A stretch of DNA of 64,000 nucleotides from Pelagibius sp. CAU 1746 (GTDB lineage: Bacteria; Pseudomonadota; Alphaproteobacteria; Kiloniellales; Kiloniellaceae), in contig NZ_JBDOQT010000001.1 of the NCBI RefSeq assembly GCF_039839785.1, positions 2,356,001-2,420,000 on the forward strand, read 5' to 3'. Below, one piece after another: positions 15,820 to 53,919 of the stretch; the stretch's first letter is position 1, and the number at the start of each line of letters is the position of its first letter. The translations under genes were made by a program, and so were the position numbers. The notes beneath the pieces are model-generated. The model saw only the letters and a program-made list of their open reading frames with translations. It searched no databases and had not been told where the DNA came from.

Positions 15820-16275
15820 TTAGGCGGCGTGGACGTCCAGGCGGAAACCGGCGGCTTCCAGTCGGCGCAAGATGGTGGCTTCCATCGAGGCCTCATCGGC
15901 ACCTTCGGACATCCGCTGGTCGACTTCCTGCCAGGCATCACGCAGGGGCTTCAGAAGATCGATGATCTTCGCGGTGCCCTCGGCGTCGCTGTGGATGTTG
16001 ACGCGGATGAGCTGCGCCAGGGCAAAGCGGTAGATGCGGCCGAGCTGTTCGGCGATCTCTCCGCCCTTTTCCATGTCCAGGCTCATGTGCAGGGTGCCGA
16101 CGATCTCGGTGACCACGTTGATCCGGTTGCAGCGTTCCTCGATATCGTTCTGCTGCATGGCCTTGATCGCAGCAGTCAGCGAGAGAATGGCCTCGTTATA
16201 GAGCATCACGACGACTTCGGTCGGACGGGCCCTCTTCACCTCGCTGCGAAAGGCTTCGGTAGCGGTAAGCGGCAT
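15820..16275 (-). CDS. FliS-family flagellin-chaperone-like protein (first copy)
   Basis: 151 residues from the ATG at 16275, preceded by a GGAG. The block RPTEVVVMLYNEAILSLTAAIKAMQQND, here at about 17-44, and the following helices (TEIVGTLHMSLDMEKGGEIAEQL) follow the FliS four-helix pattern (LYdgai...; L..sLd...GG.ia..L). FliS proteins keep flagellin soluble before export. A second copy sits after fliD at 25358, so this one, first in the fliK-flgD-flgE operon, may serve a different substrate or the other flagellin subfamily. An upstream in-frame extension without a Shine-Dalgarno was rejected. Confidence 0.75.
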   Translation of the reverse strand: MPLTATEAFRSEVKRARPTEVVVMLYNEAILSLTAAIKAMQQNDIEERCNRINVVTEIVGTLHMSLDMEKGGEIAEQLGRIYRFALAQLIRVNIHSDAEGTAKIIDLLKPLRDAWQEVDQRMSEGADEASMEATILRRLEAAGFRLDVHAA

Positions 16276-16392
16276 TGTTCTATCTCCGTGTTGCTTCCCG
16301 GGGCAGGGCCGCGCCAGACGGCATTGCTGCTTTCGGGGGCTGAGGAGCGGTGAACGCGGAACGTCCGGCCACTCCAAGTCACGGCAGGGAGA

Positions 16393-16410
16393 ACGCAAGT
16401 TGCGGGCCAA
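16393..16410 (-). promoter_or_regulatory. Sigma-54 promoter of fliS-like-fliK-flgD-flgE
   Basis: On the minus strand the sequence is TTGGCCCGCAACTTGCGT-like: GG and GC separated by exactly 10 bases, with TTGC at -12. The -24 element is TTGGCC rather than TGGCAC. It lies about 120 bp before the fliS-like ATG, with a one-mismatch dyad (GGCAGTTCTTGCA, 16498-16510) 88 bp further upstream. Confidence 0.6.
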
Positions 16411-16497
16411 CTCTTCGGTCTGCCGGAAACCGGCTGAAATCGGCGGCTTTCGATGCGGCATCTTCGTTCGCGGGCTGGCGCCGGATCATTCCTGCCT

Positions 16498-16510
16498 GGC
16501 AGTTCTTGCA
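16498..16510. promoter_or_regulatory. Putative FlbD dyad for the hook operon
   Basis: GGCAGTTCTTGCA matches GGCA-N5-TGCC at seven of eight fixed positions. Its spacing, about 90-115 bp upstream of the minus-strand sigma-54 element, is what an enhancer needs. Confidence 0.45.
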
Positions 16511-16692
16511 GGGTGGCAGGACAAGCTTTGCCCGGTCGGCCGTCCGCTGGGGAGAGGATAGGGCGCTCGGGCGAGCGCGCCGGTCTTATAAGGTGATGAT
16601 GCTTATAAGGAGATGCTGCGGCACGCGCAGCGGCTCGCGACGTCCCGCGGTCCGGAGCAGGCGAGTGCGCCGCCGCCGGGCGCGATGGAGCA

Positions 16693-16748
16693 GGAAGTCT
16701 TTGCCCGCTGGGCAATGCAGAAAATTCCAGCCGGCGCAAGACTTTGCC
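16693..16748. promoter_or_regulatory. Two putative FlbD dyads upstream of fla1
   Basis: GGAAGTCTTTGCC (16693-16705) differs from GGCA-N5-TGCC at one fixed position; GCAAGACTTTGCC (16736-16748) differs at two. They are 110 and 67 bp upstream of the fla1 sigma-54 element. Confidence 0.42.
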
Positions 16749-16814
16749 GCGGTCCTCCGCGCGACATGACGGCATAACTATATGATGAATAATGAAAAAA
16801 TACGCTCCCTGAAA

Positions 16815-16832
16815 TTGGCATGATCTGTGCTG
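16815..16832 (+). promoter_or_regulatory. Sigma-54 promoter of fla1
   Basis: TTGGCATGATCTGTGCTG has the GG-N10-GC geometry, with TGGCA at -24 and GTGC at -12. It lies about 103 bp before the fla1 ATG, giving a leader of roughly 90 nt. Confidence 0.75.
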
Positions 16833-16900
16833 AAGACAGGGCGCCCGCCTGTTTCCGGGTCCATCCGGGAACAGGAGACGCCGGCAAGCAGCCAGCTCTC

Positions 16901-16934
16901 GGGCTCTGCCCACTCAGGTTATTGGAGTAGACCC
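16901..16934 (+). promoter_or_regulatory. fla1 leader element: GGGC-TCT-GCCC hairpin plus conserved SD region
   Basis: A hairpin (GGGC, loop TCT, GCCC at 16901-16911) precedes the shared string CAGGTTATTGGAGTAGACCC and the ATG. The fla2 leader has the same arrangement with a stem one pair longer (GGGGC-TCT-GCCCC), so the pairing rather than the exact bases is kept. Confidence 0.5.
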
Positions 16935-17777
16935 ATGCCTACAGTGACGACGAACACGGCGGCCAACTCGGCGCTGCGGTTTCTGAACTACAACTCGATG
17001 ATGTCCGGCGCCTCGGTGTCGAAGCTTGCCTCCGGCTCGCGCATCGTGAAGGCGTCCGACGACGCCGCCGGTCTGGCCATCGGCACGCGCCTCCTGGCCG
17101 ACACCACGGTGTTGCGCCAGTCGGCGGTCAACGCTTCCCAGGGCGCTTCGGTGCTGCAGGTGGCCGACGGCGGCCTGGCGCGCATCGCCGACGTGCTGCA
17201 GCGTATGAAGGCGCTGGCAGCGCAGTCGCTCTCGGGCGTTCCCTCGAACACGGAGCGTGGTTTCATCGACGCCGAGTTCCAGCAGCTCAGCGCGGAAATC
17301 ACGGCCATGGCGACGACCACGCGCTTCAACGGCAACTCGCTGCTCGACGGTTCCTCGGCGGCGGCCACGCCGGTCGACTACTTTGTCGGCAGTGAGGTGG
17401 GTGACGTCATCACCGTCAACTTCGGCACCCTGGCTGCCGTGGCCGGCTTTACCGCCACCGACCTCAGTCTCGATACGCAGAGCGCCTCGACCGTGTCGGC
17501 CGCGGGCAACGCCATGTCGGCGGTGGATGCCGCCATCGACCTGGTGTCGGAGGCGCGCGCGACCCTGGGCGGCCTGATCTCCCGCTTCGAGTTCAGGGGG
17601 CAGCAGATCGCCACTTCTCTTGAAAACATCAATGCCGCGAAGTCATCCATCATGGACGTCGACCTGGCTGAGGAACAAAGCAAGCTGGTCTCGTCGCAGG
17701 TGCTTGTCCAGGCATCGGTCTCGGCGCTGTCGCAGGCCAACGAACTGCCGCAGGCCCTCCTCAGACTGCTGCAGTAA
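16935..17777 (+). CDS. Flagellin, subfamily A, copy 1
   Basis: 280 residues, a short flagellin made essentially of D0/D1. The N-terminal domain runs to about residue 140 (SKLASGSRIVKASDDAAGLA; later LAAQSLSGVPSNTERGFIDA). A variable stretch spans about 145-200, and the C-terminal domain is RFEFRGQQIATSLENINAAKSS through QANELPQALLRLLQ. The start is the ATG at 16935 after GGAG. It is about 95% like fla2 at DNA level in the conserved parts and clearly different from fla3-6 (LLADTTVLRQ versus LKADVTALTQ). It has its own sigma-54 promoter and terminator. Filament structural subunit exported by the type III apparatus. Confidence 0.96.
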   Translation: MPTVTTNTAANSALRFLNYNSMMSGASVSKLASGSRIVKASDDAAGLAIGTRLLADTTVLRQSAVNASQGASVLQVADGGLARIADVLQRMKALAAQSLSGVPSNTERGFIDAEFQQLSAEITAMATTTRFNGNSLLDGSSAAATPVDYFVGSEVGDVITVNFGTLAAVAGFTATDLSLDTQSASTVSAAGNAMSAVDAAIDLVSEARATLGGLISRFEFRGQQIATSLENINAAKSSIMDVDLAEEQSKLVSSQVLVQASVSALSQANELPQALLRLLQ

Positions 17778-17802
17778 CCACACCTCTTTGGGCAGAGGTG
17801 AA

Positions 17803-17844
17803 CGGGGCGGGGGGCCAAGAAGGCGCTCCGCCCCGAGCTTTTTT
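17803..17844 (+). terminator. Terminator after fla1
   Basis: CGGGGCGG (17803-17810) pairs with CCGCCCCG (17828-17835), followed by AGC and six T. A smaller hairpin (ACCTCT/AGAGGT) lies just before it. fla1 is therefore probably monocistronic. Confidence 0.8.
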
Positions 17845-17902
17845 GGCCCGGCTTTTACGGGAAGGGCTTTTATCCGCCGTCTGCCGTGAAGCCGCCGCAC
17901 CC

Positions 17903-17915
17903 GGCAGACTTTTCC
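17903..17915. promoter_or_regulatory. Putative FlbD dyad upstream of fla2
   Basis: GGCAGACTTTTCC, one mismatch to GGCA-N5-TGCC, 109 bp upstream of the fla2 sigma-54 element. It lies in the 366-bp fla1-fla2 intergenic region, which otherwise holds the fla1 terminator and the fla2 promoter and leader. Confidence 0.45.
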
Positions 17916-18023
17916 ATGTTTGTTGAGAAATCCCTTCCCATCGGCAGCCGCGGCGCGGCGGGCCTGGTGCCTGGGTGACAGCTCATCATATTGATATTGC
18001 TGAAGTAAATAGAATTTCTTGGG

Positions 18024-18041
18024 TTGGCACGATCTCTGCAT
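18024..18041 (+). promoter_or_regulatory. Sigma-54 promoter of fla2
   Basis: TTGGCACGATCTCTGCAT is an excellent match: TTGGCACG at -24, GC at -12, 10 bases apart. The predicted transcript start is about 90 nt before the fla2 ATG. Confidence 0.85.
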
Positions 18042-18108
18042 AGATAGGGGCAGGCCGCGCTTAAGTCGTTTGTTTGGCGCAGTTTTTACCGGCAGGACGT
18101 CGGTTCTC

Positions 18109-18143
18109 GGGGCTCTGCCCCAACAGGTTATTGGAGTAGACCC
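18109..18143 (+). promoter_or_regulatory. fla2 leader element: GGGGC-TCT-GCCCC hairpin plus conserved SD region
   Basis: Same layout as the fla1 leader, with a 5-bp stem at 18109-18121 and the shared CAGGTTATTGGAGTAGACCC just before the ATG. Confidence 0.5.
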
Positions 18144-18986
18144 ATGCCCACAGTCACGACGAACACGGCGGCCAACTCGGCGCTGCGGTTTCTGAACTAC
18201 AACTCGATGATGTCCGGCGCCTCGGTGTCGAAGCTTGCCTCCGGCTCGCGCATCGTGAAGGCGTCCGACGACGCCGCCGGTCTGGCCATCGGTACGCGCC
18301 TCCTGGCCGACACCACGGTGTTGCGCCAGTCGGCGGTCAACGCTTCCCAGGGCGCCTCGGTGCTGCAGGTGGCCGACGGCGGCCTGGCGCGCATCGCCGA
18401 CGTGCTGCAGCGCATGAAGGCGCTGGCGGCGCAGTCGCTCTCGGGCGTTCCCTCGAACACGGAGCGTGGTTTCATCGACGCCGAGTTCCAGCAGCTCAGC
18501 GAAGAAATCACGGCCATGGCGACGACCACGCGCTTCAACGGCAACTCGCTGCTCGACGGCTCCCCGACGGCCGCGACGCCGATCGAGTACTTCGTCGGCA
18601 GTGAGGTGGGTGACGTCATCACCGTCAACTTCGGCACCCTGGCGGCCACGGCCGGCTATACATCGACGTCGCTTGGCCTGGCCGCCGAGAGCGCCGGGAC
18701 GGTATCCGCGGCCGGCGCCGCAATGGCGGCGGTGGATGCCGCCATCGACCTGGTGTCGGAGGCGCGCGCGACCCTGGGCGGCCTGATCTCCCGCTTCGAG
18801 TTCAGGGGGCAGCAGATCGCCACTTCTCTTGAAAACATCAATGCCGCGAAGTCATCCATCATGGACGTCGACCTGGCTGAGGAACAAAGCAAGCTGGTCT
18901 CGTCGCAGGTGCTTGTCCAGGCATCGGTCTCGGCGCTGTCGCAGGCCAACGAACTGCCACAGGCCCTCCTCAGGCTGCTGCAGTAG
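18144..18986 (+). CDS. Flagellin, subfamily A, copy 2
   Basis: 280 residues, near-identical to fla1 outside residues about 140-200. In that segment fla1 has VDYFVG...AVAGFTATDLSLDTQS and fla2 has IEYFVG...ATAGYTSTSLGLAAES. The 3' 260 bp are almost base-for-base identical to fla1, more than expected from protein constraint alone, which points to gene conversion. It has its own sigma-54 promoter. No T-run terminator follows; a GC-rich imperfect hairpin is at about 19022-19050. Confidence 0.96.
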   Translation: MPTVTTNTAANSALRFLNYNSMMSGASVSKLASGSRIVKASDDAAGLAIGTRLLADTTVLRQSAVNASQGASVLQVADGGLARIADVLQRMKALAAQSLSGVPSNTERGFIDAEFQQLSEEITAMATTTRFNGNSLLDGSPTAATPIEYFVGSEVGDVITVNFGTLAATAGYTSTSLGLAAESAGTVSAAGAAMAAVDAAIDLVSEARATLGGLISRFEFRGQQIATSLENINAAKSSIMDVDLAEEQSKLVSSQVLVQASVSALSQANELPQALLRLLQ

Positions 18987-19094
18987 CGGCCCTGGGCCGG
19001 ACATCTTCGGGCGTGGGGTAGGGGCGGTCGCGCAGGGAGCGCGCCGCCCGGCCTCCTTGCCCCCGAAAAGTAAGGATCTGTTTACTTTCCCCTC

Positions 19095-19160
19095 GGCAAC
19101 TCTTGCCTTGCCAGAGAGCCCGGCGGCAGATTTTGCCTAGCCAGGCCGGCAGATCTTGCC
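19095..19160. promoter_or_regulatory. Three perfect GGCA-N5-TGCC dyads upstream of fla3 (putative FlbD enhancer)
   Basis: GGCAACTCTTGCC (19095-19107), GGCAGATTTTGCC (19125-19137) and GGCAGATCTTGCC (19148-19160) start 30 and 23 bp apart, 90-143 bp upstream of the fla3 sigma-54 promoter. That spacing is standard for a bacterial enhancer. This 405-bp region (18987-19391) contains no gene. Confidence 0.72.
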
Positions 19161-19249
19161 GCTTTTTGGCCCGAGCGGCCTTACATCGGGTCTGAGGTTC
19201 CTTCTCTAAGCTTCTGGTACATAAGTAAATCTGGAGCGATTACACCTTT

Positions 19250-19267
19250 TTGGCATCCCCCTTGCGT
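19250..19267 (+). promoter_or_regulatory. Sigma-54 promoter of fla3
   Basis: TTGGCATCCCCCTTGCGT has GG-N10-GC geometry with a full TTGC at -12. It is the only such promoter found among fla3-fla6, so it probably drives the whole four-gene run. The leader would be about 110 nt and include both AAGTA-loop hairpins. Confidence 0.83.
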
Positions 19268-19315
19268 AGGGGGAGACGGATTTGTGTGCTCGGATTCCGT
19301 CCAGCGCATGCTCCG

Positions 19316-19391
19316 GCGGCCAAGTAGGTCGCTATCGGACCTCTCCGCAGGAGGTGGAGGGGGCGACGCTTCAAGTAGAAGGAATGAACTG
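19316..19391 (+). promoter_or_regulatory. fla3 leader with paired AAGTA-loop hairpins
   Basis: A distal hairpin GCGGCC-AAGTA-GGTCGC (19316-19332) and a proximal hairpin CTTC-AAGTA-GAAG (from 19369) share the same five-base loop. The proximal stem takes in GAAG of the Shine-Dalgarno AGAAGGA. The 23 bases before the ATG are identical in fla3, fla4, fla5 and fla6. Candidate binding site for CsrA or an FlbT-like factor; the binding partner is inference. Confidence 0.6.
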
Positions 19392-20228
19392 ATGCCTGTT
19401 GTTGCTACGAATACGGCGGCGAACTCCGCCCTTCGTTTTCTGAACTACAACTCGTCCATGGCGTCGAGCTCGGTCAGCAAGCTGGCCTCTGGCTCGCGCA
19501 TCGTGAAGGCTTCCGACGACGCCGCCGGCCTTGCCATCGGCACCCGTCTGAAGGCCGACGTGACGGCGCTGACCCAGTCCGGCATCAACGCCGCCCAGGG
19601 TGCCTCCGTGGTGCAGGTGGCCGATGGCGGCCTCGGCCGTATCGGCGACGTTCTGCAGCGTATGAAGGCCCTGGCGGCCCAGTCGCTGTCGGGTGTTCCG
19701 ACCAACACGGAGCGTGGCTTCATCAACGCCGAGTACCAGGAGCTGCTGAGCGAAATCGACGGTATTGCCGCGACCACCCGCTTCAACGGCGACTCGGTTC
19801 TGGACGGCACGGTGACGGCGACCGACTACTTCGTCGGCACCGACGTCAGCGACACCATCACCGTCGACTTCACCAACCTGGCCGCCGCGGCGTCTTCCTT
19901 CACTGCGGCCGGTATCAGCGTGAACGGCACCTGGGTTGGCACGGTCGCCGCTGCGACGGCGGCGATGGCTGCGGTCGACACGGCGATCGACCGCGTTTCC
20001 GAGGCGCGTGCGACGGCTGGTGCCCTGATCTCCCGTTTCGAGTTCCGCGGCCAGCAGATCGCGACCTCGCTGGAGAACATCGACGCGGCCAAGTCGTCCA
20101 TCATGGACGTCGACCTGGCCGCCGAGCAGAGCAAGCTGGTCTCCAACCAGGTGCTGGTCCAGGCGGCCGTGTCGGCCGTCTCCCAGGCCAACCAGATCCC
20201 GCAGTCCCTGCTGCGGGTCCTGCAGTAG
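19392..20228 (+). CDS. Flagellin, subfamily B, copy 1 (fla3)
   Basis: 278 residues. It begins MPVVATNTAANSALRF and has the flagellin N domain (SKLASGSRIVKASDDAAGLA) and C domain (SLENIDAAKSSIMDVDLAAE, ending QIPQSLLRVLQ). The variable segment is about 165-195 (AAAASSFTAAGISVNGTWVG). It differs from fla1/2 throughout yet is nearly identical to fla4-6 outside the variable part. A longer upstream in-frame start lacks a Shine-Dalgarno; the ATG at 19392 is eight bases after AGAAGGA. It has the strongest upstream regulatory set of the array, so is likely the main filament gene of subfamily B. Confidence 0.96.
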   Translation: MPVVATNTAANSALRFLNYNSSMASSSVSKLASGSRIVKASDDAAGLAIGTRLKADVTALTQSGINAAQGASVVQVADGGLGRIGDVLQRMKALAAQSLSGVPTNTERGFINAEYQELLSEIDGIAATTRFNGDSVLDGTVTATDYFVGTDVSDTITVDFTNLAAAASSFTAAGISVNGTWVGTVAAATAAMAAVDTAIDRVSEARATAGALISRFEFRGQQIATSLENIDAAKSSIMDVDLAAEQSKLVSNQVLVQAAVSAVSQANQIPQSLLRVLQ

Positions 20229-20315
20229 GTACATAGGCTGGCCAAGTAGGCCGGCAGGATATGTCCCCCGCGCGACGCGGGGGGCGCCACCTCTTCAAGT
20301 AGAAGGAATGAACTG
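20229..20315 (+). repeat. 87-bp fla3-fla4 spacer, duplicated as the fla5-fla6 spacer
   Basis: Identical in length to 22121-22207 and different at only three positions. It holds a GCTGGCC-AAGTA-GGCCGGC hairpin (20237-20255), a CCCCCGCG-CGA-CGCGGGGG hairpin without T tract, and the proximal CTTC-AAGTA-GAAG/SD hairpin (20293-20305). The fla4-fla5 spacer is unrelated in its upstream part. Confidence 0.85.
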
Positions 20316-21152
20316 ATGCCTGTTGTTGCTACGAATACGGCGGCGAACTCCGCCCTTCGTTTCCTGAACTATAACTCGTCCCAGGCGTCGAGCTCGGTCA
20401 GCAAGCTGGCCTCCGGCTCGCGCATCGTGAAGGCTTCCGACGACGCCGCCGGCCTTGCCATCGGCACCCGTCTGAAGGCCGACGTGACGGCGCTGACCCA
20501 GTCCGGCATCAACGCCGCCCAGGGTGCCTCCGTGGTGCAGGTGGCCGATGGCGGCCTCGGCCGTATCGGCGACGTTCTGCAGCGCATGAAGGCGCTGGCG
20601 GCCCAGTCGCTGTCGGGTGTTCCGACCGATACGGAGCGCGGCTTCATCGACGCCGAGTTCCAGGAGCTGGTGAGCGAAATCGACGGCATTGCCGCGACCA
20701 CCCGCTTCAACGGCGACTCGGTCCTGGATGGCACGGTCGCCACCACGGACTACTTCGTCGGCACCGACGTCAGCGACACCATCACCGTCGACTTCACCAG
20801 CTTGGCGGCCAGTGCTGCGGCTTTCACCGCCGCTACCCTCGGTGTTGGCTCCAGCGATGTGGCGACGGCCGGCGCGGCCGCTGCGGCGATGTCGGCGATC
20901 GACACGGCGATCGACCGCGTTTCCGAGGCGCGTGCGACGGCTGGTGCCCTGATCTCCCGTTTCGAGTTCCGCGGTCAGCAGATCGCGACCTCGCTGGAGA
21001 ACATCGACGCGGCCAAGTCGTCCATCATGGACGTCGACCTGGCCGCCGAGCAGAGCAAGCTGGTCTCCAACCAGGTGCTGGTCCAGGCGGCGGTTTCGGC
21101 CGTCTCCCAGGCCAACCAGATCCCGCAGTCCCTGCTGCGGGTGCTGCAGTAA
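20316..21152 (+). CDS. Flagellin, subfamily B, copy 2 (fla4)
   Basis: 278 residues, same architecture as fla3. Distinguishing residues are Gln21 (NYNSSQASSS, where the other B copies have Met) and a variable segment ASAAAFTAATLGVGSSDVAT. No sigma-54 promoter was seen in the 87-bp spacer upstream, so it is probably read through from fla3. It is followed by a strong hairpin. Confidence 0.95.
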   Translation: MPVVATNTAANSALRFLNYNSSQASSSVSKLASGSRIVKASDDAAGLAIGTRLKADVTALTQSGINAAQGASVVQVADGGLGRIGDVLQRMKALAAQSLSGVPTDTERGFIDAEFQELVSEIDGIAATTRFNGDSVLDGTVATTDYFVGTDVSDTITVDFTSLAASAAAFTAATLGVGSSDVATAGAAAAAMSAIDTAIDRVSEARATAGALISRFEFRGQQIATSLENIDAAKSSIMDVDLAAEQSKLVSNQVLVQAAVSAVSQANQIPQSLLRVLQ

Positions 21153-21163
21153 TTTAGCGTTTC

Positions 21164-21193
21164 TCCCCGGGAGGCTTGGCGCCTCCCGGGGAG
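21164..21193 (+). terminator. Strong hairpin after fla4, no T tract
   Basis: CTCCCCGGGAGGC and the following GCCTCCCGGGGAG form a 13-bp-class stem with a tiny loop. Without a T run it may act as an mRNA stabiliser or partial attenuator between fla4 and fla5 rather than a full terminator. A second inverted repeat (CTTCCGC/GCGGAAG) lies at about 21227-21253. Confidence 0.5.
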
Positions 21194-21201
21194 GAGTTCC
21201 T

Positions 21202-21283
21202 GGCCGGCTAGGTAAGCTGGTCTGTTTCTTCCGCTGCAGGACGTGGCGGAAGAGAAGGCTCTTCAAGTAGAAGGAATGAACTG
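21202..21283 (+). promoter_or_regulatory. fla5 leader
   Basis: A 7-bp stem GGCCGGC/GCTGGTC with loop TAGGTAA (21202-21222) occupies the place of the AAGTA distal hairpin seen before fla3, fla4 and fla6. The proximal CTTC-AAGTA-GAAG/SD hairpin (from 21261) is identical to the others. Confidence 0.45.
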
Positions 21284-22120
21284 ATGCCTGTTGTTGCTAC
21301 GAATACGGCGGCGAACTCCGCCCTTCGTTTCCTGAACTACAACTCGTCCATGGCGTCGAGCTCGGTCAGCAAGCTGGCCTCTGGCTCGCGCATCGTGAAG
21401 GCTTCCGACGACGCCGCCGGCCTTGCCATCGGCACCCGTCTGAAGGCCGACGTGACGGCGCTGACCCAGGCCGGCATCAATGCCGCCCAGGGTGCCTCCG
21501 TGGTGCAGGTGGCCGATGGCGGCCTCGGCCGTATCGGCGATGTTCTGCAGCGTATGAAGGCCCTGGCGGCCCAGTCGCTGTCGGGTGTTCCGACCGATAC
21601 GGAGCGTGGCTTCATCGACGCCGAGTACAGCGAGCTGGTGAGTGAAATCAGCGGTATCGCCGCGACCACCCGCTTCAACGGCGACTCGGTCCTGGACGGC
21701 ACGGTGACGGCGACCGACTACTTCGTCGGCACCGACGTCAGCGACACCATCACCGTCGACTTCACTGCCTTGGCGGCAGGCGCCGCCAACTTTACCGCGA
21801 CCACGCTGGGCGTGGCCGCCAACGGAGTCAGCACGGTTGCCAGTGCTCAGGCGGCTATGGCCGCCGTTGACTCGGCGATCGACGACGTCTCCGAGGCGCG
21901 TGCGACGGCTGGTGCCCTGATCTCCCGTTTCGAGTTCCGCGGCCAGCAGATCGCGACCTCGCTGGAGAACATCGACGCGGCCAAGTCGTCCATCATGGAC
22001 GTCGACCTGGCCGCCGAGCAGAGCAAGCTGGTCTCCAACCAGGTGCTGGTCCAGGCGGCGGTTTCGGCCGTCTCTCAGGCCAACCAGATCCCGCAGTCCC
22101 TGCTGCGGGTGCTGCAGTAG
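21284..22120 (+). CDS. Flagellin, subfamily B, copy 3 (fla5)
   Basis: 278 residues, same architecture. The variable segment reads AAGAANFTATTLGVAANGVS, then TVASAQAAMAAVDSAIDDVSEAR. The 5' 350 bp and 3' 220 bp are nearly identical in DNA to fla3, fla4 and fla6, including silent positions. Confidence 0.95.
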   Translation: MPVVATNTAANSALRFLNYNSSMASSSVSKLASGSRIVKASDDAAGLAIGTRLKADVTALTQAGINAAQGASVVQVADGGLGRIGDVLQRMKALAAQSLSGVPTDTERGFIDAEYSELVSEISGIAATTRFNGDSVLDGTVTATDYFVGTDVSDTITVDFTALAAGAANFTATTLGVAANGVSTVASAQAAMAAVDSAIDDVSEARATAGALISRFEFRGQQIATSLENIDAAKSSIMDVDLAAEQSKLVSNQVLVQAAVSAVSQANQIPQSLLRVLQ

Positions 22121-22207
22121 GTACATAGGCTGGCCAAGTAGGCCGGCAGGATATGTCCCCCGCGCGATGCGGGGGACACCACCTCTTCAAGTAGAAGGAA
22201 TGAACTG
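22121..22207 (+). repeat. 87-bp fla5-fla6 spacer, copy of the fla3-fla4 spacer
   Basis: Matches 20229-20315 at 84 of 87 positions. One difference changes the loop of the CCCCCGCG hairpin and two lie just after it; the AAGTA hairpins (22129-22147 and 22185-22197) are unchanged. Confidence 0.85.
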
Positions 22208-23050
22208 ATGCCTGTTGTTGCTACGAATACGGCGGCGAACTCCGCCCTCCGTTTCCTGAACTACAACTCGTCCATGGCGTCGAGCTCGGTCAGCAAGCTG
22301 GCCTCCGGCTCGCGCATCGTGAAGGCTTCCGACGACGCCGCCGGCCTTGCCATCGGCACCCGTCTGAAGGCTGACGTGACGGCGCTGACCCAGGCCGGCA
22401 TCAATGCCGCCCAGGGTGCCTCCGTGGTGCAGGTGGCCGATGGTGGTCTCGCCCGTATCGGCGACGTCCTGCAGCGCATGAAAGCCCTGGCGGCCCAGTC
22501 GCTGTCGGGTGTTCCGACCAACACGGAGCGTGGCTTCATCAACGCCGAGTTCCAGGAGCTGCTGAGCGAAATCAACGGTATTGCCGCGACCACCCGCTTC
22601 AACGGCGACTCGGTTCTGGACGGCACGGTGACGGCGACCGACTACTTCGTCGGCACCGACGTCAGCGACACCATCACCGTCGACTTCACCAACCTCGCTC
22701 CGGGCGCGGCTGTGACCGCCTTCACCACCACCGGTCTTGGCGTGAACGGCAGCAGCGTGAGCACCCCCGGCAACGCTTCTGCGGCGATGGCGGCGGTCGA
22801 CACGGCGATCGACTCGATCTCCGAGGCGCGTGCGACGGCTGGTGCTCTGATCTCCCGTTTCGAGTTCCGCGGTCAGCAGATCGCGACCTCGCTGGAGAAT
22901 ATCGACGCGGCCAAGTCGTCCATCATGGACGTCGACCTGGCCGCCGAGCAGAGCAAGCTGGTCTCCAACCAGGTGCTGGTCCAGGCGGCCGTGTCGGCCG
23001 TCTCCCAGGCCAACCAGATCCCGCAGTCCCTGCTGCGGGTTCTGCAGTAA
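22208..23050 (+). CDS. Flagellin, subfamily B, copy 4 (fla6)
   Basis: 280 residues, two longer than the other B copies because of the variable segment (APGAAVTAFTTTGLGVNGSS). N- and C-terminal domains are as in fla3-5, except GGLARIG in place of GGLGRIG near residue 85. It is followed by a GGGTGTGGCC/GGCCACACCC hairpin and flaG 82 bp downstream. Confidence 0.95.
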   Translation: MPVVATNTAANSALRFLNYNSSMASSSVSKLASGSRIVKASDDAAGLAIGTRLKADVTALTQAGINAAQGASVVQVADGGLARIGDVLQRMKALAAQSLSGVPTNTERGFINAEFQELLSEINGIAATTRFNGDSVLDGTVTATDYFVGTDVSDTITVDFTNLAPGAAVTAFTTTGLGVNGSSVSTPGNASAAMAAVDTAIDSISEARATAGALISRFEFRGQQIATSLENIDAAKSSIMDVDLAAEQSKLVSNQVLVQAAVSAVSQANQIPQSLLRVLQ

Positions 23051-23067
23051 GCCCGGATTGTCTGGTT

Positions 23068-23093
23068 GGGTGTGGCCTTTAGGGGCCACACCC
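23068..23093 (+). terminator. Hairpin after fla6, no T tract
   Basis: GGGTGTGGCC and GGCCACACCC form a perfect 10-bp stem with a six-base loop, 18 bp after the fla6 stop. It may be a partial terminator controlling flaG-fliD readthrough. Confidence 0.5.
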
Positions 23094-23132
23094 GGCCGGT
23101 CCGGCAGGCCCGCCTAAGGAGGGCTTTAGCAC

Positions 23133-23483
23133 ATGGACACGACGATCAAGAGCACCGCCTCGTCGACGGCGGTTCCGAATACCACCTCGACCCCGGCCAA
23201 AGCGCCGCCGGTCGACACCAGGACGATGACGCCCGAGAAGGTGGAGAGCCCGCAGGCCGTGCAGGCCAGCGGGAGATCCAGCAAGCCGGTGCTTCAGCAA
23301 GCCGCTCCGAACTCCGCCCTGACCACCTACAAGGATCAGGACAGCGGGCGGCTGATCGTCCGGGTCTACGATCGCCAGAACGGCGACATCTTGGTGGAAT
23401 TCCCTCCGGAAAAGGCATTCCGGAGCGTGGAGGAGGTCCTCCAGGGTGTGGGTAAGAAGCCAAACAAGACCATTTCCGTATAG
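23133..23483 (+). CDS. flaG: FlaG family protein
   Basis: 116 residues. A Thr/Ser/Pro-rich N-terminal tail (1-60) is followed by the FlaG core: TTYKDQDSGRLIVRVYDRQN, then GDILVEFPPEKAF and the final helix. FlaG proteins affect filament length or FliD/flagellin interplay and are typically encoded between flagellin and fliD, as here. The ATG at 23133 follows AAGGAGGG by ten bases. Confidence 0.85.
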   Translation: MDTTIKSTASSTAVPNTTSTPAKAPPVDTRTMTPEKVESPQAVQASGRSSKPVLQQAAPNSALTTYKDQDSGRLIVRVYDRQNGDILVEFPPEKAFRSVEEVLQGVGKKPNKTISV

Positions 23484-23575
23484 CTTAATGCCTTGATAAC
23501 CAAGATATTTTAACGGCTTTTAAGCAAATACAGCAGTAGTCTGGGGTGTAGAATTGGGGGCGTAGGAGAAGTGTT

Positions 23576-25297
23576 ATGGCTCTCGCAGGAACACAGGGCA
23601 CGGTTTCCTTCCTGGGAAACTCCCCGCTGCTGACCGGCTCGTTTTCCGGCTTGGACACGGCTGCCATCATTGAAGCCTCGCTCGCCGTCAAGCGGATCCC
23701 GATCGACCGGCTTGAGAACAAGATCTCGCAGAACGATACCCGCATCGCGGCGTTCAATGAGTTCAAGACACTTCTCAACAACCTTCAGTCCGCGGTCAAC
23801 GGGCTGCGCAACCCGCCGGGCTCCACCGGCATTCTGAGCAACGTCTTCGAGCAGAAGGCCGCCTTCGTCTCCTCCAACACCGCGACGGCGGCGACCGAGA
23901 TTCTGGGCGCCACGGCCACCAACAATGCCGCTGCGGGCGTTTATGAGATCGTCGTACAGCAGATTGCCGAAGCTCACAAAGTCTCGGGCAGCACGCTGGC
24001 CGATGTCTCGACGGCGCTGGGCGTCACGGAAACCATCACCGTCGGCCTGGCCGGCGGGACCACCGCCGACATCGCCGTCACCCCGGACATGACCGCCACG
24101 GACGTGGTCTATGCCATCAACGCCGTTTCCAGCACGACCGGCGTTCGCGCCTCAGCTCTCAAGATCGCCGCCGGCGACTATCGGGTCGTCCTGACGGCGG
24201 AGGACACCAACAAGGCGATCCAGGTCACCGGCGACAACGCCGGCGCCACTCTGGCGGCCTTGGGGCTCTCCGCGGACAACGGCGCAACCTATACCGAAGT
24301 TCTACAGGTGCCGCAGCCGGCGCAGCTCACGCTGGACGGCATCGCCACCGTTATCGAGCGCGATTCCAACGAGATCGATGATCTTATCGACAACGTGACC
24401 ATCGATCTCTTCAAGGCCGACGTGGGCACCACGGTGACCCTGGAGATCGAGAACGACCTCTCGGCGGCGAGGGCGCAGATCGACGAGTTCGTCACCGCCT
24501 ACAACGATGTAAAGTCCTTCCTGCTGTCGCAGCAGGAGGTGAACGAGGACGGCGAGCTCGGCTCCGCGGCAATTCTCTTCGGCGACAACCTGTTGCGTTC
24601 TCTGGGCCGCGACCTGGGCGGCGACCTGGCCGACCTCGTCGACGGTGTCGGGGCCAGCGACCTGGCGACCCTGCGCAGCGTCGGTATCGAGATCGGCGAA
24701 GACGGCCTGCTGACCATCGACAACGGGACCCTGGATGCCAACCTGGTCGACAAGCTGGACCAGGTGCGCGCCGTCTTCGAATTCGGTTTCCAGTCGAGTT
24801 CTGCCGAGGTACGGCTGGTGAAGCGGGGCCAGCTTCTGGAGGTCGGCACCTTCGTGATCACCGATCCGGGCGGAGCCATCGACGGCACCAACCTGCAGGT
24901 CGGCGGGGTCGATGCCTTCCAGGTGGACGGCAGCGTGCTGCGCGGTCTGGAGGGGACGATTTACGAAGGTATGTCGCTGGCCTATGGCCGTGACACTTCG
25001 GATGCGGGCGCGGTGGCCCAGAACATCACGATCACGACGACGACCGGCATCGCCGAGCGCCTCTACCAGCACCTCGAGAACTACGTGAATGCTTCCGACG
25101 GGTTGATCACGGAAGAGGTGAACCGCCTGACGGCCCAGAGCGAGGACTACAGCGACAAGATCCTGGCCTTGGAAGACCGTCTTCTGATCTACCAGAACAC
25201 CCTGGTCGAGAAGTATGCTGCCATGGAGCGGGCCGTTGCCCAGGCCCAGGCAATGGCCGATCAGCTCTCGGCCTTCCTCAAGGGCGGCGACGACTGA
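23576..25297 (+). CDS. fliD: FliD filament cap protein
   Basis: 573 residues. The N-terminal domain has SGLDTAAIIEASLAVKRIPI and a heptad-rich DRLENKISQNDTRIAAFNEF (about 22-70), the hallmark of FliD. The C-terminal helical domain (about 490-570) has TAQSEDYSDKILALEDRLLI and a final coiled coil. FliD caps the growing filament and folds exported flagellin. It lies between flaG and fliS; the 92-bp gap upstream is A/T-rich and may hold a weak promoter, but no sigma-54 element is visible. Confidence 0.95.
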   Translation: MALAGTQGTVSFLGNSPLLTGSFSGLDTAAIIEASLAVKRIPIDRLENKISQNDTRIAAFNEFKTLLNNLQSAVNGLRNPPGSTGILSNVFEQKAAFVSSNTATAATEILGATATNNAAAGVYEIVVQQIAEAHKVSGSTLADVSTALGVTETITVGLAGGTTADIAVTPDMTATDVVYAINAVSSTTGVRASALKIAAGDYRVVLTAEDTNKAIQVTGDNAGATLAALGLSADNGATYTEVLQVPQPAQLTLDGIATVIERDSNEIDDLIDNVTIDLFKADVGTTVTLEIENDLSAARAQIDEFVTAYNDVKSFLLSQQEVNEDGELGSAAILFGDNLLRSLGRDLGGDLADLVDGVGASDLATLRSVGIEIGEDGLLTIDNGTLDANLVDKLDQVRAVFEFGFQSSSAEVRLVKRGQLLEVGTFVITDPGGAIDGTNLQVGGVDAFQVDGSVLRGLEGTIYEGMSLAYGRDTSDAGAVAQNITITTTTGIAERLYQHLENYVNASDGLITEEVNRLTAQSEDYSDKILALEDRLLIYQNTLVEKYAAMERAVAQAQAMADQLSAFLKGGDD

Positions 25298-25357
25298 TCC
25301 AGCTTCCCGCCGGGAACGGCCGGCGGGCGAGACCGTGAAGCATCGAGGTTCGGGAAC

Positions 25358-25825
25358 GTGACACAATCCTACAACGCTCTGTCCGCTTACCAGGCCGCCT
25401 CCAACATGACGACCTCGCTGGGCGCGGTGGTCATGCTCTATGACGGCATGATCAAGGAAGTGGGCAAGGCGAAGGCGGCCATCCAGGAGGGCCGGATCGA
25501 GGATCGTTTCAACGCCACCCAGAAGGCCTGCAAGATTCTCTTGGGCCTGCAGTCGCACCTCGATTTCGAGAGGGGCGGGGACATCTCCCTGATGCTCGAT
25601 CAGTTCTACCATACGATCTTCCGCGATCTGCAGAAGGTCAACATGAGCAATTCCGCGTCGGCCTGCGACGAGATCATCAACGCCCTCGGTGAAGTTAGGG
25701 CGAGTTGGGCGGAGTTGGCGAAGAATGGCCAGGGCAGCGCCCCTCCGCAAGCGGGGGGGAAGCCGGCCGCCGAGGGCACGGAGCCGGAAACGCCGGCGCC
25801 GTCTTCCGTCGCCCTTTCCATCTGA
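25358..25825 (+). CDS. fliS: FliS flagellin chaperone (second copy), GTG start
   Basis: 155 residues from a GTG at 25358. The signature is YNALSAYQAASNMTTSLGAV followed by VMLYDGMIKEVGKAKAAI, then LLGLQSHLDFERGGDISLML. FliS binds the C-terminal helix of flagellin in the cytoplasm and delivers it to FlhA. A Gly/Pro/Glu-rich 35-residue tail is unusual. Its place after fliD is the classical fliS position, so this is the better candidate for the bona fide flagellin chaperone. Confidence 0.92.
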   Translation: MTQSYNALSAYQAASNMTTSLGAVVMLYDGMIKEVGKAKAAIQEGRIEDRFNATQKACKILLGLQSHLDFERGGDISLMLDQFYHTIFRDLQKVNMSNSASACDEIINALGEVRASWAELAKNGQGSAPPQAGGKPAAEGTEPETPAPSSVALSI

Positions 25826-25901
25826 AGACGCAAAGCAGCCGCCGGCGGCTGGAATCCAGCCGGCCCGGTGCCTTCGGGGACGACTTTAAAGGTTCTCTTA
25901 G

Positions 25902-25916
25902 TAAATGACTGCTTAA
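25902..25916 (+). promoter_or_regulatory. Weak CtrA-like box upstream of the TPR gene
   Basis: TAAATGACTGCTTAA, one mismatch to TTAA-N7-TTAA, 75 bp before the ATG at 25991. Given the low information content of this motif I rate it as only suggestive. Confidence 0.3.
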
Positions 25917-25990
25917 TGTGGTGACGGCGTCCGGCCCGGCCCATCGGGTGGCGCCTGTGCAGCAATTTCAGCACCCGTGAGCAGGATCGA

Positions 25991-28141
25991 ATGAGCCAGC
26001 AGCAGCCAGCATCCCCCAATGCCGAGAAGTCGATGAAGTCGCCGCGCGGCGCCAAGGCGGCCCGCCAGGGCCCCAAGGAAGGCCGGAAAGGGCGCGACTT
26101 GGGCAAGATGCTGGCGGCGGCGGAGGAAAAGTACGAGACCGGGCGCTTAAGGGGCGCCGTCGACATGCTCAAAAGAGTTCTGAGCGCCGACCGCGGAAAT
26201 CCCGTCGCCACGGCACTGCTGGGGCTCTGCTATATGCGCCAGCGCCGCTTTCCGGAGGGCGAGAAGCTGATGAAGCGGGCGCTGGAATCGGCGCCGGCCA
26301 ACCCCGCGGTGCAGGTTCTCTACGCCAAGCTACTGCATGGCTTGGGGCAGATGGATCAGGCGGTCAACGTCTACACCCGCGCTCTCGAGCTGGAGCCGGA
26401 CAACGGCGGAACCTACCGGGAGCTTGGCATCCTGCTGCTGGACGCCGGCGTTCTGGACCAGGCGATCGAGGCCTTGATCATGGCGATCCGGCTCAACAAC
26501 AGTGACGCCAAGGCCTTTTACCACCTGGGTCTGATCAAGAAACGCCAAGGCTTGATCAAGGAAGCGGTCGACGCCTATAGCATGGCCGTGGGGCTGAAAC
26601 CGGATTATGCGGAGGCGCACGTCAATCTCGGGAAGATCGCGATCGACAACGAGAAGTACGAGCTGGGCGAAAAATCCTGCTTCAAGGCGATCGAGGCCAA
26701 TCCGAAGATGGCCCAGCCCTATATCAACCTCTGCATGATCAAGCGTGCCCAGGGGAATTTCGAAGAGTCAATCCGCTATGGGAAGAAGGGCGTCGAACTC
26801 GATCCCATCAACGGCGCTGCCCATTCCAATCTGGGCAATACCTACATGGACCAGCATCGCTACCGCGAGGCGCTGGTCTGCTTTCGCAAGGCGATGGAAT
26901 TCGAACCCAGCTTTGCCTCCAGCTATTTCAATACCGGCAATGCGCTGCGCCTGCTGCACGAGCTGGATAAGGCGAACGTCCATTACGACAAGGCGATCGA
27001 TCTGGAGCCGGAGCGCGGCGAGTATATCCACAACCGCGGACTGGTCTGCCAGGAACAGGGCGACAACCCCAAAGCCCTGGAGTACTTCCGCAAGGCCGTC
27101 AAGTTCCAGCCGAACGAGCCGGGTCTGCAGTTCTCGCTGGCGCGGTCGCTATGGCGCAACGAGCTGTTCGAAGAATCCTGGGACTACTTCGATTCCGGCT
27201 TGACGGCCAATCTGCGCAAGCCGGTCCGCTGCTTCAGGCAGCCCCGCTGGCGTGGCGAGGACATCGCCGACAAACGCATTCTCGTGTGGCGTGAGCAGGG
27301 CCTGGGTGACGAGATCGACTTCAGCCGCCGCTATCCGCATATCATCGATGCGGCCGGGCAGGTGGTCATCGAGGCGGACAAGCGCATGCTGCCGATCTTC
27401 GAGCGCAGCTTTCCGCAGGCGAGTTTCCTGCCGGAGAAGCTGGACGTGAAGACCGACCTGGAGCGCAAGGACTGCGATCTTCACCTCCCGGCCGGCAACC
27501 TGCTTCAGTATTTCCCTCTCACCGAGGCGGAAATCGCCATGAAGCGCTATCCGGAAGATGACCTGGAAGCCGCCTTTGCCTGCGGTGAGCGCTCCCGGAA
27601 CGCCAAGGGCTATCTGGCACCGGACCCGAAGCTGGTGGAGCAGATGGCGGAACGCGTGTCGGGCCTGCCGGAAGGTTTCAAGTTAGGCATCTGCTGGCGC
27701 AGCCAGTACTCCCACCGCGACCGTGACATCCACTACACCCGGCTGGAGATGTGGGAGCCGATCTTCCGCATCCCCGGGCTTGTTTTCGTCAATCTCTTCT
27801 ACGAGAAGTGCGAAGAGGAGATTGCCGAGGCCGAGGCGCGCTTCGGCATCAAAATCCACCGTTGGGACGACATCGACCTGAAGGACGATATGGAGTCGGC
27901 TTTTGCGCTGACCACCCAGATGGACATGGTGCTGTCGACGTCGACTTCGCCCAGCCGTATCGCGGAAGCGGTGGGCAAGGAGATCTGGCTGATGTCCGCG
28001 GGCGGCAGCCGCGTGAACGAGTCGCCCAAGGGCGAGTACGGGGTCCCCCACCATCTTCACTGGCAGCGCCATTGGACCGAGCCCTGGTCGGTGCTGATGG
28101 AGCGTATCGCGGCGGCCCTGGAGGCACGCCTTCGCGGCTGA
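25991..28141 (+). CDS. TPR protein with C-terminal glycosyltransferase-like domain
   Basis: 716 residues. A basic N-terminal 35 residues precede about ten TPR repeats (35-410; e.g. AEAHVNLGKIAIDNEKYELG and AAHSNLGNTYMDQHRYREAL). The C-terminal 300 residues begin KRILVWREQGLGDEIDFSRRYP and end near DMVLSTSTSPSRIAEAVGKE. This resembles the TPR-plus-GT9/GT41-like proteins often found next to flagellin genes, where the Gly-Asp-Glu and late Ser-rich loops would face a nucleotide-sugar. I infer a flagellin glycosyltransferase, but the substrate is not shown. It ends at a shared bidirectional terminator. Confidence 0.72.
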   Translation: MSQQQPASPNAEKSMKSPRGAKAARQGPKEGRKGRDLGKMLAAAEEKYETGRLRGAVDMLKRVLSADRGNPVATALLGLCYMRQRRFPEGEKLMKRALESAPANPAVQVLYAKLLHGLGQMDQAVNVYTRALELEPDNGGTYRELGILLLDAGVLDQAIEALIMAIRLNNSDAKAFYHLGLIKKRQGLIKEAVDAYSMAVGLKPDYAEAHVNLGKIAIDNEKYELGEKSCFKAIEANPKMAQPYINLCMIKRAQGNFEESIRYGKKGVELDPINGAAHSNLGNTYMDQHRYREALVCFRKAMEFEPSFASSYFNTGNALRLLHELDKANVHYDKAIDLEPERGEYIHNRGLVCQEQGDNPKALEYFRKAVKFQPNEPGLQFSLARSLWRNELFEESWDYFDSGLTANLRKPVRCFRQPRWRGEDIADKRILVWREQGLGDEIDFSRRYPHIIDAAGQVVIEADKRMLPIFERSFPQASFLPEKLDVKTDLERKDCDLHLPAGNLLQYFPLTEAEIAMKRYPEDDLEAAFACGERSRNAKGYLAPDPKLVEQMAERVSGLPEGFKLGICWRSQYSHRDRDIHYTRLEMWEPIFRIPGLVFVNLFYEKCEEEIAEAEARFGIKIHRWDDIDLKDDMESAFALTTQMDMVLSTSTSPSRIAEAVGKEIWLMSAGGSRVNESPKGEYGVPHHLHWQRHWTEPWSVLMERIAAALEARLRG

Positions 28142-28169
28142 GGGCTTCTCTCCCGCGACCCGCAAAAAG

Positions 28170-28198
28170 AAAGGGCCGTCCCGGAGGACGGCCCTTTT
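28170..28198. terminator. Bidirectional terminator between the TPR gene and fliW
   Basis: AAAGGGCCGTCC pairs with GGACGGCCCTTT (12 bp, CGGA tetraloop) with A and T runs on either side. It sits 29 bp after the TPR gene stop and 20 bp after the fliW stop on the other strand. Confidence 0.92.
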
Positions 28199-28217
28199 CC
28201 GCGTCTGCTTTGGCGCC

Positions 28218-28730
28218 TTACAGGGTATGGCGCACTTCGTAGCGGTCATTGGGCATGATGTACTGCCAGGCCTGACGGCTCTTCGTATCGATGAAGATCG
28301 GCGCGCGCATGTTGACCGAGGTCTCGAAGCTGTTGCCCATGCGCCGGAAGGTCGCGATCAGCATGATGGCGCAGTTCTGAACGGTGATGTTCAGGTGCTG
28401 CAGCGCGGCGTCGATGTCCTTCGGCTCGATCAGGCCGGCGGCGGGCTCGTAGGGCAGGACGATGAACGAGAGGTCGTCCGGGTCCAGGGCCTGCAGCAGC
28501 ATGAAGCTGGACTGCGATTCGCTGGGGATCATCGCCAGGCCGAAGGAATTGTAGCCGACAAAGCCGGGAATTCCCTTCGGGAAGGTTAAGGCCTGGTTAA
28601 GGTCGAATTCGATGACGCCGAACCGCGTCTTCACGGTCGTCGTCTGTTCCGCACCGGAGGGAGGCGCCGAGGCGTACCCGCCGTGGCTGGCTGGAGCGGC
28701 CATCCTGGCTGCCTGAATCTCGCGGGGCAT
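28218..28730 (-). CDS. fliW: FliW flagellar assembly factor / CsrA antagonist
   Basis: 170 residues. Residues about 35-165 are a FliW domain: TRFGVIEFDLNQALTFPKGI, then PGFVGYNSFGLAMI and NCAIMLIATFRRMGNSFETSVN-like strands. FliW binds flagellin and CsrA alternately, so that flagellin accumulation frees CsrA to repress flagellin mRNA. csrA lies at 53659. An Ala/Gly/Ser-rich N-terminal extension of about 30 residues is not usual; an alternative ATG nine codons in would shorten it. The ATG at 28730 follows GGAGTTAACT. It is the last gene of the flgI-flgL set. Confidence 0.9.
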   Translation of the reverse strand: MPREIQAARMAAPASHGGYASAPPSGAEQTTTVKTRFGVIEFDLNQALTFPKGIPGFVGYNSFGLAMIPSESQSSFMLLQALDPDDLSFIVLPYEPAAGLIEPKDIDAALQHLNITVQNCAIMLIATFRRMGNSFETSVNMRAPIFIDTKSRQAWQYIMPNDRYEVRHTL

Positions 28731-28799
28731 AGTTAACTCCTTACTCTTGAGGGCCCCATTATCGGCCCCATCTGGTTACGAAATCGCTATTCAGGGCAT

Positions 28800-29720: not shown

Positions 29721-29736
29721 TGGATGTCTCCTAACC

Positions 29737-53658: not shown

Positions 53659-53919
53659 TTAAGAGCCGCCGCTGTCGCTTTTGGGCGACGCCGGCACGGC
53701 GGTGCCCTTGATCGCTTCGGCCAGGGCCTCGTCGTCGCCTACGGCAGCAGCCCTGTTTTCCTCTTGGATACGCTCGAAGATTTCGCGCCGCAGCACCGTC
53801 GCATCGCTTGGGAAGGTAAATCCCAGCTTGATCGACTTGCCGCGGATATCCACCACCGTGACCTCGATATTGTCGTTTATGATGACGGACTCGCCGATTT
53901 TGCGTGTCAGATAAAGCAT
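53659..53919 (-). CDS. csrA: CsrA RNA-binding translational regulator
   Basis: 86 residues. MLYLTRKIGESVIINDNIEV, then TVVDIRGKSIKLGFTFPSDA and the RNA-contact VLRREIFERIQEEN are typical CsrA. A 25-residue disordered tail is extra. CsrA dimers bind GGA-type hairpins, often over Shine-Dalgarno sites. With fliW at 28218 it should form the flagellin-CsrA-FliW partner switch. It stands between the fhlB operon and flgB. Confidence 0.95.
   Translation of the reverse strand: MLYLTRKIGESVIINDNIEVTVVDIRGKSIKLGFTFPSDATVLRREIFERIQEENRAAAVGDDEALAEAIKGTAVPASPKSDSGGS

Follow-up and report, generated by a model that had tools for sequence, protein, structure and literature searches.

Pentaloop hairpins in the flagellin leaders of Pelagibius and other Alphaproteobacteria: candidate CsrA–FliW control elements with a predicted non-GGA loop

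The leader of the hag flagellin messenger RNA (mRNA) of Bacillus subtilis contains more than one hairpin, one of them at the Shine-Dalgarno (SD) sequence, and another leader RNA, the flg-Rhizobiales RNA motif, is a family in Rfam. Control of flagellin mRNA by CsrA and FliW is known for hag and for flaA of Campylobacter jejuni (excerpts of PMC6529632, PMC6070490 and PMC4894983), and in Caulobacter the protein FlbT has been reported to bind a flagellin 5′ untranslated region (5′ UTR; Anderson and Gober 2000, as cited in excerpts of PMC4347634 and PMC3930126). Here we describe hairpins in the flagellin leaders of a 64-kb stretch of Pelagibius sp. CAU 1746 (contig NZ_JBDOQT010000001.1, positions 2,356,001 to 2,420,000; the window is this whole stretch). 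These hairpins are real and are conserved far beyond the window, and their recurrent five-base loops read ANGUA or AGGAN (N, any base). We give a somewhat better than even probability, roughly 0.56, to the reading that the leaders are CsrA–FliW control elements for flagellin synthesis in which the SD-proximal site uses a predicted CsrA loop without GGA.

In the leaders of the B-type flagellin genes fla3–fla6, RNAfold predicts three hairpins each (distal, middle and proximal), and the distal and proximal hairpins belong to the minimum-energy structure. The genes and hairpins are as follows, with the kind of evidence in brackets.

19316..19332, +, fla3 distal hairpin GCGGCC-AAGUA-GGUCGC (sequence, scan, fold)
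19340..19362, +, fla3 middle hairpin, AGGAG loop, C-G closed, a CsrA-type loop (scan, fold, alignment)
19369..19383, +, fla3 proximal hairpin CUUC-AAGUA-GAAG, 3′ arm beginning the SD GAAGGA, ATG at 19392 (match, fold)
19392..20228, +, fla3, flagellin
20237..20255, +, fla4 distal hairpin GCUGGCC-AAGUA-GGCCGGC (match, scan, fold)
20262..20286, +, fla4 middle GC hairpin, without AGGA loop (fold)
20293..20307, +, fla4 proximal hairpin over the SD, ATG at 20316 (match, fold)
20316..21152, +, fla4, flagellin
21202..21222, +, fla5 distal hairpin GGCCGGCU-AGGUA-AGCUGGUC, loop ANGUA, U-A closing pair (sequence, fold, alignment)
21225..21255, +, fla5 middle hairpin, AGGAC loop, C-G closed (fold)
21260..21275, +, fla5 proximal hairpin over the SD, ATG at 21284 (match, fold)
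21284..22120, +, fla5, flagellin
22129..22147, +, fla6 distal hairpin GCUGGCC-AAGUA-GGCCGGC (match, scan, fold)
22154..22178, +, fla6 middle hairpin, GCGAU loop (fold)
22185..22199, +, fla6 proximal hairpin over the SD, ATG at 22208 (match, fold)
22208..23050, +, fla6, flagellin

The first-pass annotation of this DNA had described the distal stem-loops of fla3, fla4 and fla6 and, in all four B-type leaders, a proximal CTTC-AAGTA-GAAG stem with its 3′ arm in the SD, and both are present. The proximal pattern CTTCAAGTAGAAG occurs exactly at 19369, 20293, 21261 and 22185, corresponding to the four B-type flagellins, and with up to two mismatches it has seven matches in the window compared with a shuffled mean of 0.48 (largest 3). 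The distal pattern GGCCAAGTAGGYC occurs exactly at 19318, 20240 and 22132, and with up to two mismatches has 15 matches compared with a shuffled mean of 2.89 (largest 8). That annotation overlooked the distal hairpin of fla5 and did not list the strong middle hairpin found in each B-type leader, whose loop is AGGAG in fla3, AGGAC in fla5 and GCGAU in fla6, the GC hairpin of fla4 having a three-base loop. When the window was scanned for C-ANGUA-G hairpins with a stem of at least 4 pairs, all seven hits lay within the fla3–fla6 leaders; of five control loops, C-AUGNA-G had 5 hits, spread across the window, and the other four had 1, 0, 1 and 0. Folding z-scores were −1.50, −3.62, −3.39 and −4.88 for fla3, fla4, fla5 and fla6, so that the fla3 leader is not significant by energy alone, and the fla4 and fla6 leaders are near-identical duplicates. 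The SD-overlapping hairpin of all four genes has the loop AAGUA, with no GGA in it. The fla1 and fla2 leaders lack an ANGUA hairpin and have related pentaloop hairpins instead (AAGCA and AGGAC, respectively); AGGAN-loop hairpins are thus found in the window leaders of fla2, fla3 and fla5, and not in those of fla1, fla4 and fla6.

16883..16893, +, fla1 leader hairpin GGC-AAGCA-GCC, ANGCA loop (fold)
18088..18104, +, fla2 leader hairpin ACCGGC-AGGAC-GUCGGU, AGGAN loop (scan, fold)

A scan of named genomes with the six flagellins of the window yielded 62 loci, the nearest from Pelagibius and other Kiloniellaceae. We aligned 28 B-type leaders, four from the window and 24 from nine loci (L007–L012 and L014–L016), for which RNAalifold returned three hairpins, all with pentaloops, and changes on both sides with pairing kept at 12 of the 20 pairs. 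The distal loop reads ANGUA in 24 of these leaders (the four exceptions, two in L010 and two in L014, have a decayed loop), AGGAN is the middle loop in 18, and the proximal loop reads ANGUA in all 28. As expected of a stem made by the SD, the proximal stem is invariant and consequently provides no covariation evidence in this set. The A-type flagellin leaders of L010–L013 mostly have a different conserved leader, with a CGCTnGGnGACGAGC hairpin and then AAGGAGATGCGG before the ATG, which is not of the pentaloop kind.

To follow the element across the class, we used two sets of leaders. The first comprised 111 flagellin rows, of which 97 were used: L066 and L068 gave no row, rows were left out where CsrA status was then lacking (L031, L040 (2), L043 (3), L049, L063 and L067 (3)) and others where the start lay outside the locus (L017, L039 (one row) and L041). 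The second comprised 130 rows among the matches listed (30 loci and 100 fetched stretches), of which 126 were used, after dropping G281 (a duplicate of G019) and three leaders shorter than 60 nt; the rows left unread were mostly low-scoring, with a few higher ones from genomes already represented (G088, G155 and G170). Start codons were assigned by a script that misplaced a few of them (for example in L176, L189, L198 and L201), an error that should lower, not raise, the counts.

From the 223 leaders we took every CANGTAG occurrence, with no stem required, giving 127 in 61 genomes. The first three flanking positions form Watson–Crick pairs in 93%, 87% and 67% of cases (118 unique), compared with 41%, 31% and 37% at the same positions of background occurrences (n = 244). 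For covariation at distal sites, 39 unique sequences were chosen by loop and position, again irrespective of stem, and their stems score 0.650 compared with 0.213 when shuffled (0 of 500 shuffles reached it) and at most 0.193 with slid partners, while C-ANGUA-G stays constant. In this set 75 cells changed on both sides, compared with 29.7 in shuffles; the number of pairs with any both-side change (6 versus 5.9) does not discriminate. Because 9 of the 39 have three pairs or fewer, closing pair included, some distal matches are not hairpins. Of the 84 CANGUAG sites no more than 22 nt from the start codon, 80 sit 9–15 nt upstream of it, and the 79 unique proximal stems are of two main types, CUUC..GAAG and UCC..GGA. 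In the class sample, leaders were read for 36 families with CsrA, of which 19 have ANGUA, eight have only AGGAN or ANGAA, and nine have neither. The covariation and loop conservation sought in related genomes are therefore both present, and stems that change with compensation around a constant loop are, as had been proposed, the signature of protein-bound hairpins.

We next counted closing pair and loop together, without a preset motif, for hairpins with a stem of at least 4 pairs and loops of 4–7 bases in the leaders of the 87 genomes with a CsrA match. Widely shared loops occur at length 5, and the leading ones fit C-A-N-G-W-N-G (W, A or U): AAGUA in 25 genomes, AGGAA in 20, AGGUA in 10, ACGUA in 9, AUGUA, AGGAU and AGGAC in 8 each, and AGGAG and AAGAA in 6 each. 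No motif of length 4 was seen in more than four genomes and none of length 6 in more than five, and the leading motifs of length 7 (at most 8 genomes) are mostly the same pentaloop hairpins with the closing pair opened. C-ANGUA-G with this stem is present in 45 of the 87 genomes, compared with 0.18 on average and at most 1 in 100 dinucleotide shuffles. A-N-G-W-A loops are closed by C-G in 59 genomes and by other pairs in 2–4; position 1 is A in 59 genomes and any other base in 1 each, position 3 is G in 59 (A 4, C 0, U 8), and position 4, given A at position 5, is U in 45 (A 26, C 5, G 0). Position 2 is free, with all four bases seen, and the other positions are constrained; the earlier description of a fixed AAGUA loop was thus right about constraint and too narrow about sequence. 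Loop–loop or small-RNA pairing was set aside, since a free position 2 and a loop that is not self-complementary would fit it poorly. The textbook CsrA loops, C-ANGGA-G pentaloops and C-ANGGAN-G hexaloops with a stem of at least 4 pairs, were found in none of the 87 genomes.

Aligned to canonical ANGGAN, ANGUA keeps A1, N2, G3 and A5 and replaces G4 by U. Over the SD, the UCC..GGA stem carries ANGUA in some families and AGGAN in others: UCC-AAGUA-GGAG is seen in many, and UCC-AGGAA-GGA or CUCC-AGGAC-GGAG elsewhere (G253, G128 and G243). Overall, ANGUA is proximal at 80 places and distal at 35, and AGGAN proximal at 10 and distal at 52. Among the 182 leaders of CsrA-bearing genomes, 42 pair a proximal ANGUA hairpin with an AGGAN-type one at the distal site, 14 carry ANGUA at both sites and no AGGAN-type hairpin, 24 carry only the proximal ANGUA, and 71 fall into none of these classes.

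Within the loci examined, ANGUA hairpins are nearly restricted to flagellin leaders. Only one of 462 non-flagellin leaders of long reading frames in the same loci, that of fliS, has one, and two have AGGAN; the fliS hairpin, UAGC-C-AUGUA-G-GCUA (L048, ~10085–10105), lies 14 nt upstream of the ATG. In the genome of the window, the SD-type pattern TYCANGTAGRRGG has eight matches compared with six for a backwards control, and because four of the eight are the flagellins and four lie inside other long open frames, it reveals no further regulon member. A search of 289 genomes of the class with the fixed stem TTCANGTAGAAGG..ATG was rejected as too narrow, with 18 genomes matched by the pattern and 18 by its backwards control; enrichment was seen only in the genome of the window (four matches, control 0), along with a few flagellin leaders. 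Rfam gave seven weak matches in window positions 16000–30000 at E values up to 5, all far below the gathering score and none flagellar, several being terminator-like, and no flagellar family at the gathering score in 14 other loci. Our searches of open-licence literature found no description of an ANGUA flagellin element; the first-pass annotation likewise knew of no account of a paired AAGUA element.

The window also encodes the two proteins of the candidate pathway, as first noted.

28218..28730, −, fliW, assigned by family as the CsrA-antagonist protein (Pfam PF02623)
53659..53919, −, csrA, sole csrA match in the genome and proposed reader of the loops (Pfam PF02599)

The window CsrA has Phe36, Ala40, Leu43 and Arg44, and does not have the canonical Ala36, Val40 and His43. 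In RsmN, the backbone of Ala54, Val58, Ile60 and Arg62 reads two G bases (excerpt of PMC3791407); by our own numbering map these residues correspond to CsrA positions 36, 40, 42 and 44. A36V is among the C. jejuni CsrA changes with the strongest loss of flaA control (excerpt of PMC6692469). We read CsrA in 83 of the 87 CsrA-bearing genomes: residue 36 is Phe or Tyr, and the canonical Arg44 is present, in all 57 ANGUA genomes with a read CsrA. Outside the class residue 36 is Ala in all 36 CsrAs read, 30 from a phylum sample, which lean to the canonical form because they are its best-scoring matches, and six from five Bdellovibrio-like, deltaproteobacterial and Vibrio genomes; CANGTAG is absent from the flagellin leaders read in these five. 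The change at residue 36 would be compatible with a shifted code, and alone it does not predict the loop that a genome uses. The CsrAs of G194 (L303), G068 and G298 (L330, L334) have an altered GG-pocket region, with SAP or DYE/DYP replacing xFP, and in the leaders of these genomes the loops are AAGAA or AGGAA, with ANGUA absent; they are useful natural controls.

The distribution of the hairpin follows CsrA. CsrA is found in 42 of the 49 genomes behind the first loci, FliW in 40 and FlbT in four. CsrA is also found in 57 of 289 class-sample genomes (in one, G318, below the family cut-off), and FlbT in 18 of 80 such genomes (56 having a CsrA match and 24 lacking one, the latter picked among larger genomes and not at random), with only G135 and G256 having both. 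Among genomes with a read leader, an ANGUA hairpin with a stem of at least 3 pairs occurs in 59 of 87 with CsrA, in 2 of 23 without CsrA and in 0 of 19 with FlbT, and C-AGGAN-G with a stem of at least 4 pairs in 32 of the 87. The first-pass annotation had reasoned that CsrA wants GGA and hence that a different or additional factor, for example FlbT-like, reads the loop. This is not the best reading, since the element follows CsrA and AGGA-loop hairpins exchange with ANGUA.

By analogy with hag and flaA, CsrA binding to ANGUA, bridging, repression and relief by FliW can be envisaged as follows. A CsrA dimer would bind C-G-closed pentaloop hairpins, one upstream (ANGUA or AGGAN) and the ANGUA hairpin over the SD, and by bridging them would clamp the SD shut and block translation, until FliW, freed on flagellin export, took CsrA away. 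An aromatic side chain at position 36, within the pocket where the GG of ANGGA is read, may allow CsrA to accept ANGUA instead of GGA, and because the SD is part of the stem, the loop would not need GGA in order to carry the CsrA signal. RsmE is known to target AGGAX pentaloops, which are A(N)GGAX without the N, and good binding is also reported for ANGGA pentaloops (excerpt of PMC4005645). The broader proposal, that the alphaproteobacterial CsrA RNA code has been rewritten so that CsrA with an aromatic residue 36 reads both C-ANGUA-G and AGGAN, and that whole lineages use a non-GGA loop over the SD, falls just short of an even chance.

Several observations weigh against a CsrA that reads ANGUA. 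The solved complexes read GGA through the backbone, and it is said not to be replaceable (excerpt of PMC4005645); in vitro selection (SELEX) with C. jejuni CsrA returned GGA in every ligand (excerpt of PMC6692469). Phe or Tyr at residue 36 is also found in genomes with AGGAN only (11 of 12) and in those with neither loop (12 of 14), and we saw no position in CsrA by which ANGUA genomes could be told apart from the AGGAN-only group. No ANGUA hairpin is present in 28 of the 87 CsrA-bearing genomes, and neither loop class in 16. The associations with CsrA and FlbT follow large clades rather than many independent events, so that the Fisher p of 4e-7 for CsrA overstates independence. G021 (L029) and G035 (L048) have ANGUA leaders and neither a CsrA nor a FliW match; both are metagenome-assembled and are either incomplete or real counter-examples. 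Finally, C-AGGAN-G occurs in 3 of 23 genomes without CsrA (shuffled mean 0.03, maximum 1), and a further FlbT genome, G085, has C-AUGAA-G. Two of the three carry FlbT (G016, L024; G018, L026), with the hairpins distal in flagellin leaders. Because AGGAN hairpins occur in genomes with FlbT or without CsrA, we lowered our confidence in the CsrA reading slightly.

The alternative that survives best, though we consider it unlikely, has two readers, CsrA on the AGGAN hairpins and a separate RNA-binding protein of the same lineages on ANGUA, much as the first-pass annotation had suggested in general terms. The need of published CsrA sites for GGA (excerpts of PMC6692469 and PMC4005645), the mostly proximal ANGUA and mostly distal AGGAN, as if their roles differed, and the two ANGUA genomes without CsrA would all fit it. 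However, the two loops share the pentaloop form, C-G closing, A1 and G3, and they substitute for one another at corresponding leader positions; the analysis turned up no candidate for the second protein, and no screen for one was made. Should another protein read ANGUA, it would be a new flagellin regulator in many families.

Less probable still is an intrinsic RNA switch, in which the proximal hairpin alone hides the SD, folding or mRNA stability accounts for the conserved loop, and CsrA acts only through AGGAN or through the AAGGA or AGGA of the SD. The proximal hairpin of fla3–fla6 is indeed predicted to fold on its own, and the SD sequence is itself a possible CsrA core, but 27 of the 79 unique proximal stems have three pairs or fewer, closing pair included, and look too weak to act alone. 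Moreover, the loop is constant in distal hairpins that contain neither SD nor GGA, and a free position 2 among constrained positions fits base readout.

Control of the FlbT type is very improbable despite the report of FlbT on the Caulobacter flagellin 5′ UTR (excerpts of PMC4347634 and PMC3930126), because FlbT was not found in the genome of the window and no FlbT genome with a read leader has an ANGUA hairpin; barring an analogue without sequence similarity, it is refuted here. Chance or the shared ancestry of duplicated leaders, to which the near-identity of the fla4 and fla6 leaders might point, has next to no probability given the covariation, the shuffles and the spread of ANGUA over families.

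Upstream of fla1, fla2 and fla3 we recognized by eye what we take to be sigma-54-like promoters (TGGCA..TGC; 16816–16830, 18025–18039 and 19251–19265). The genes fla4–fla6 start after gaps of 87–131 nt in which no sigma-54-like box was seen by eye, and each gap still holds its own copy of the three-hairpin element. On the minus strand, a strong terminator-like hairpin with a U run lies directly 3′ of fliW (28162–28199).

CsrA is regarded as a GGA-reading protein. If the CsrA–FliW reading is true, an ANGUA element that is found in many alphaproteobacterial families and goes with an altered pocket residue would show this code to be evolvable. As far as the literature was checked, ANGUA would then be the first CsrA site in nature to lack GGA, as well as an example of protein–RNA code drift across a bacterial class. 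It would also explain how flagellin synthesis is coupled to assembly in Alphaproteobacteria without FlbT, and would mean that GGA-based prediction of CsrA targets misses a main target in these lineages.

Compared with known systems, the element resembles the flg-Rhizobiales motif in being a flagellar leader RNA of Alphaproteobacteria, and differs from it in that the window leaders have no flagellar Rfam match. It shares with FlbT control of Caulobacter fljK a post-transcriptional mode, predicted here, at a flagellin 5′ UTR of an alphaproteobacterium, whereas the genome of the window is without FlbT. Like the Rsm/Csr sites SL3 and SL4 of RsmZ (excerpt of PMC4005645), it has a pentaloop on a short stem with A first and G third; unlike Rsm/Csr pentaloops, it has U rather than G or A at position 4 and lies in flagellin mRNA leaders rather than in sponge RNAs. 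As in the CsrA–FliW systems, the genome encodes both CsrA and FliW, and as in flaA (excerpts of PMC4894983 and PMC6692469) the leaders have more than one hairpin, one of them at the SD; an AGGA-type loop is present in several of the leaders and missing from others. Unlike in hag and flaA, the SD-proximal and many distal loops read ANGUA, with no GGA, and residue 36 of CsrA is aromatic instead of Ala.

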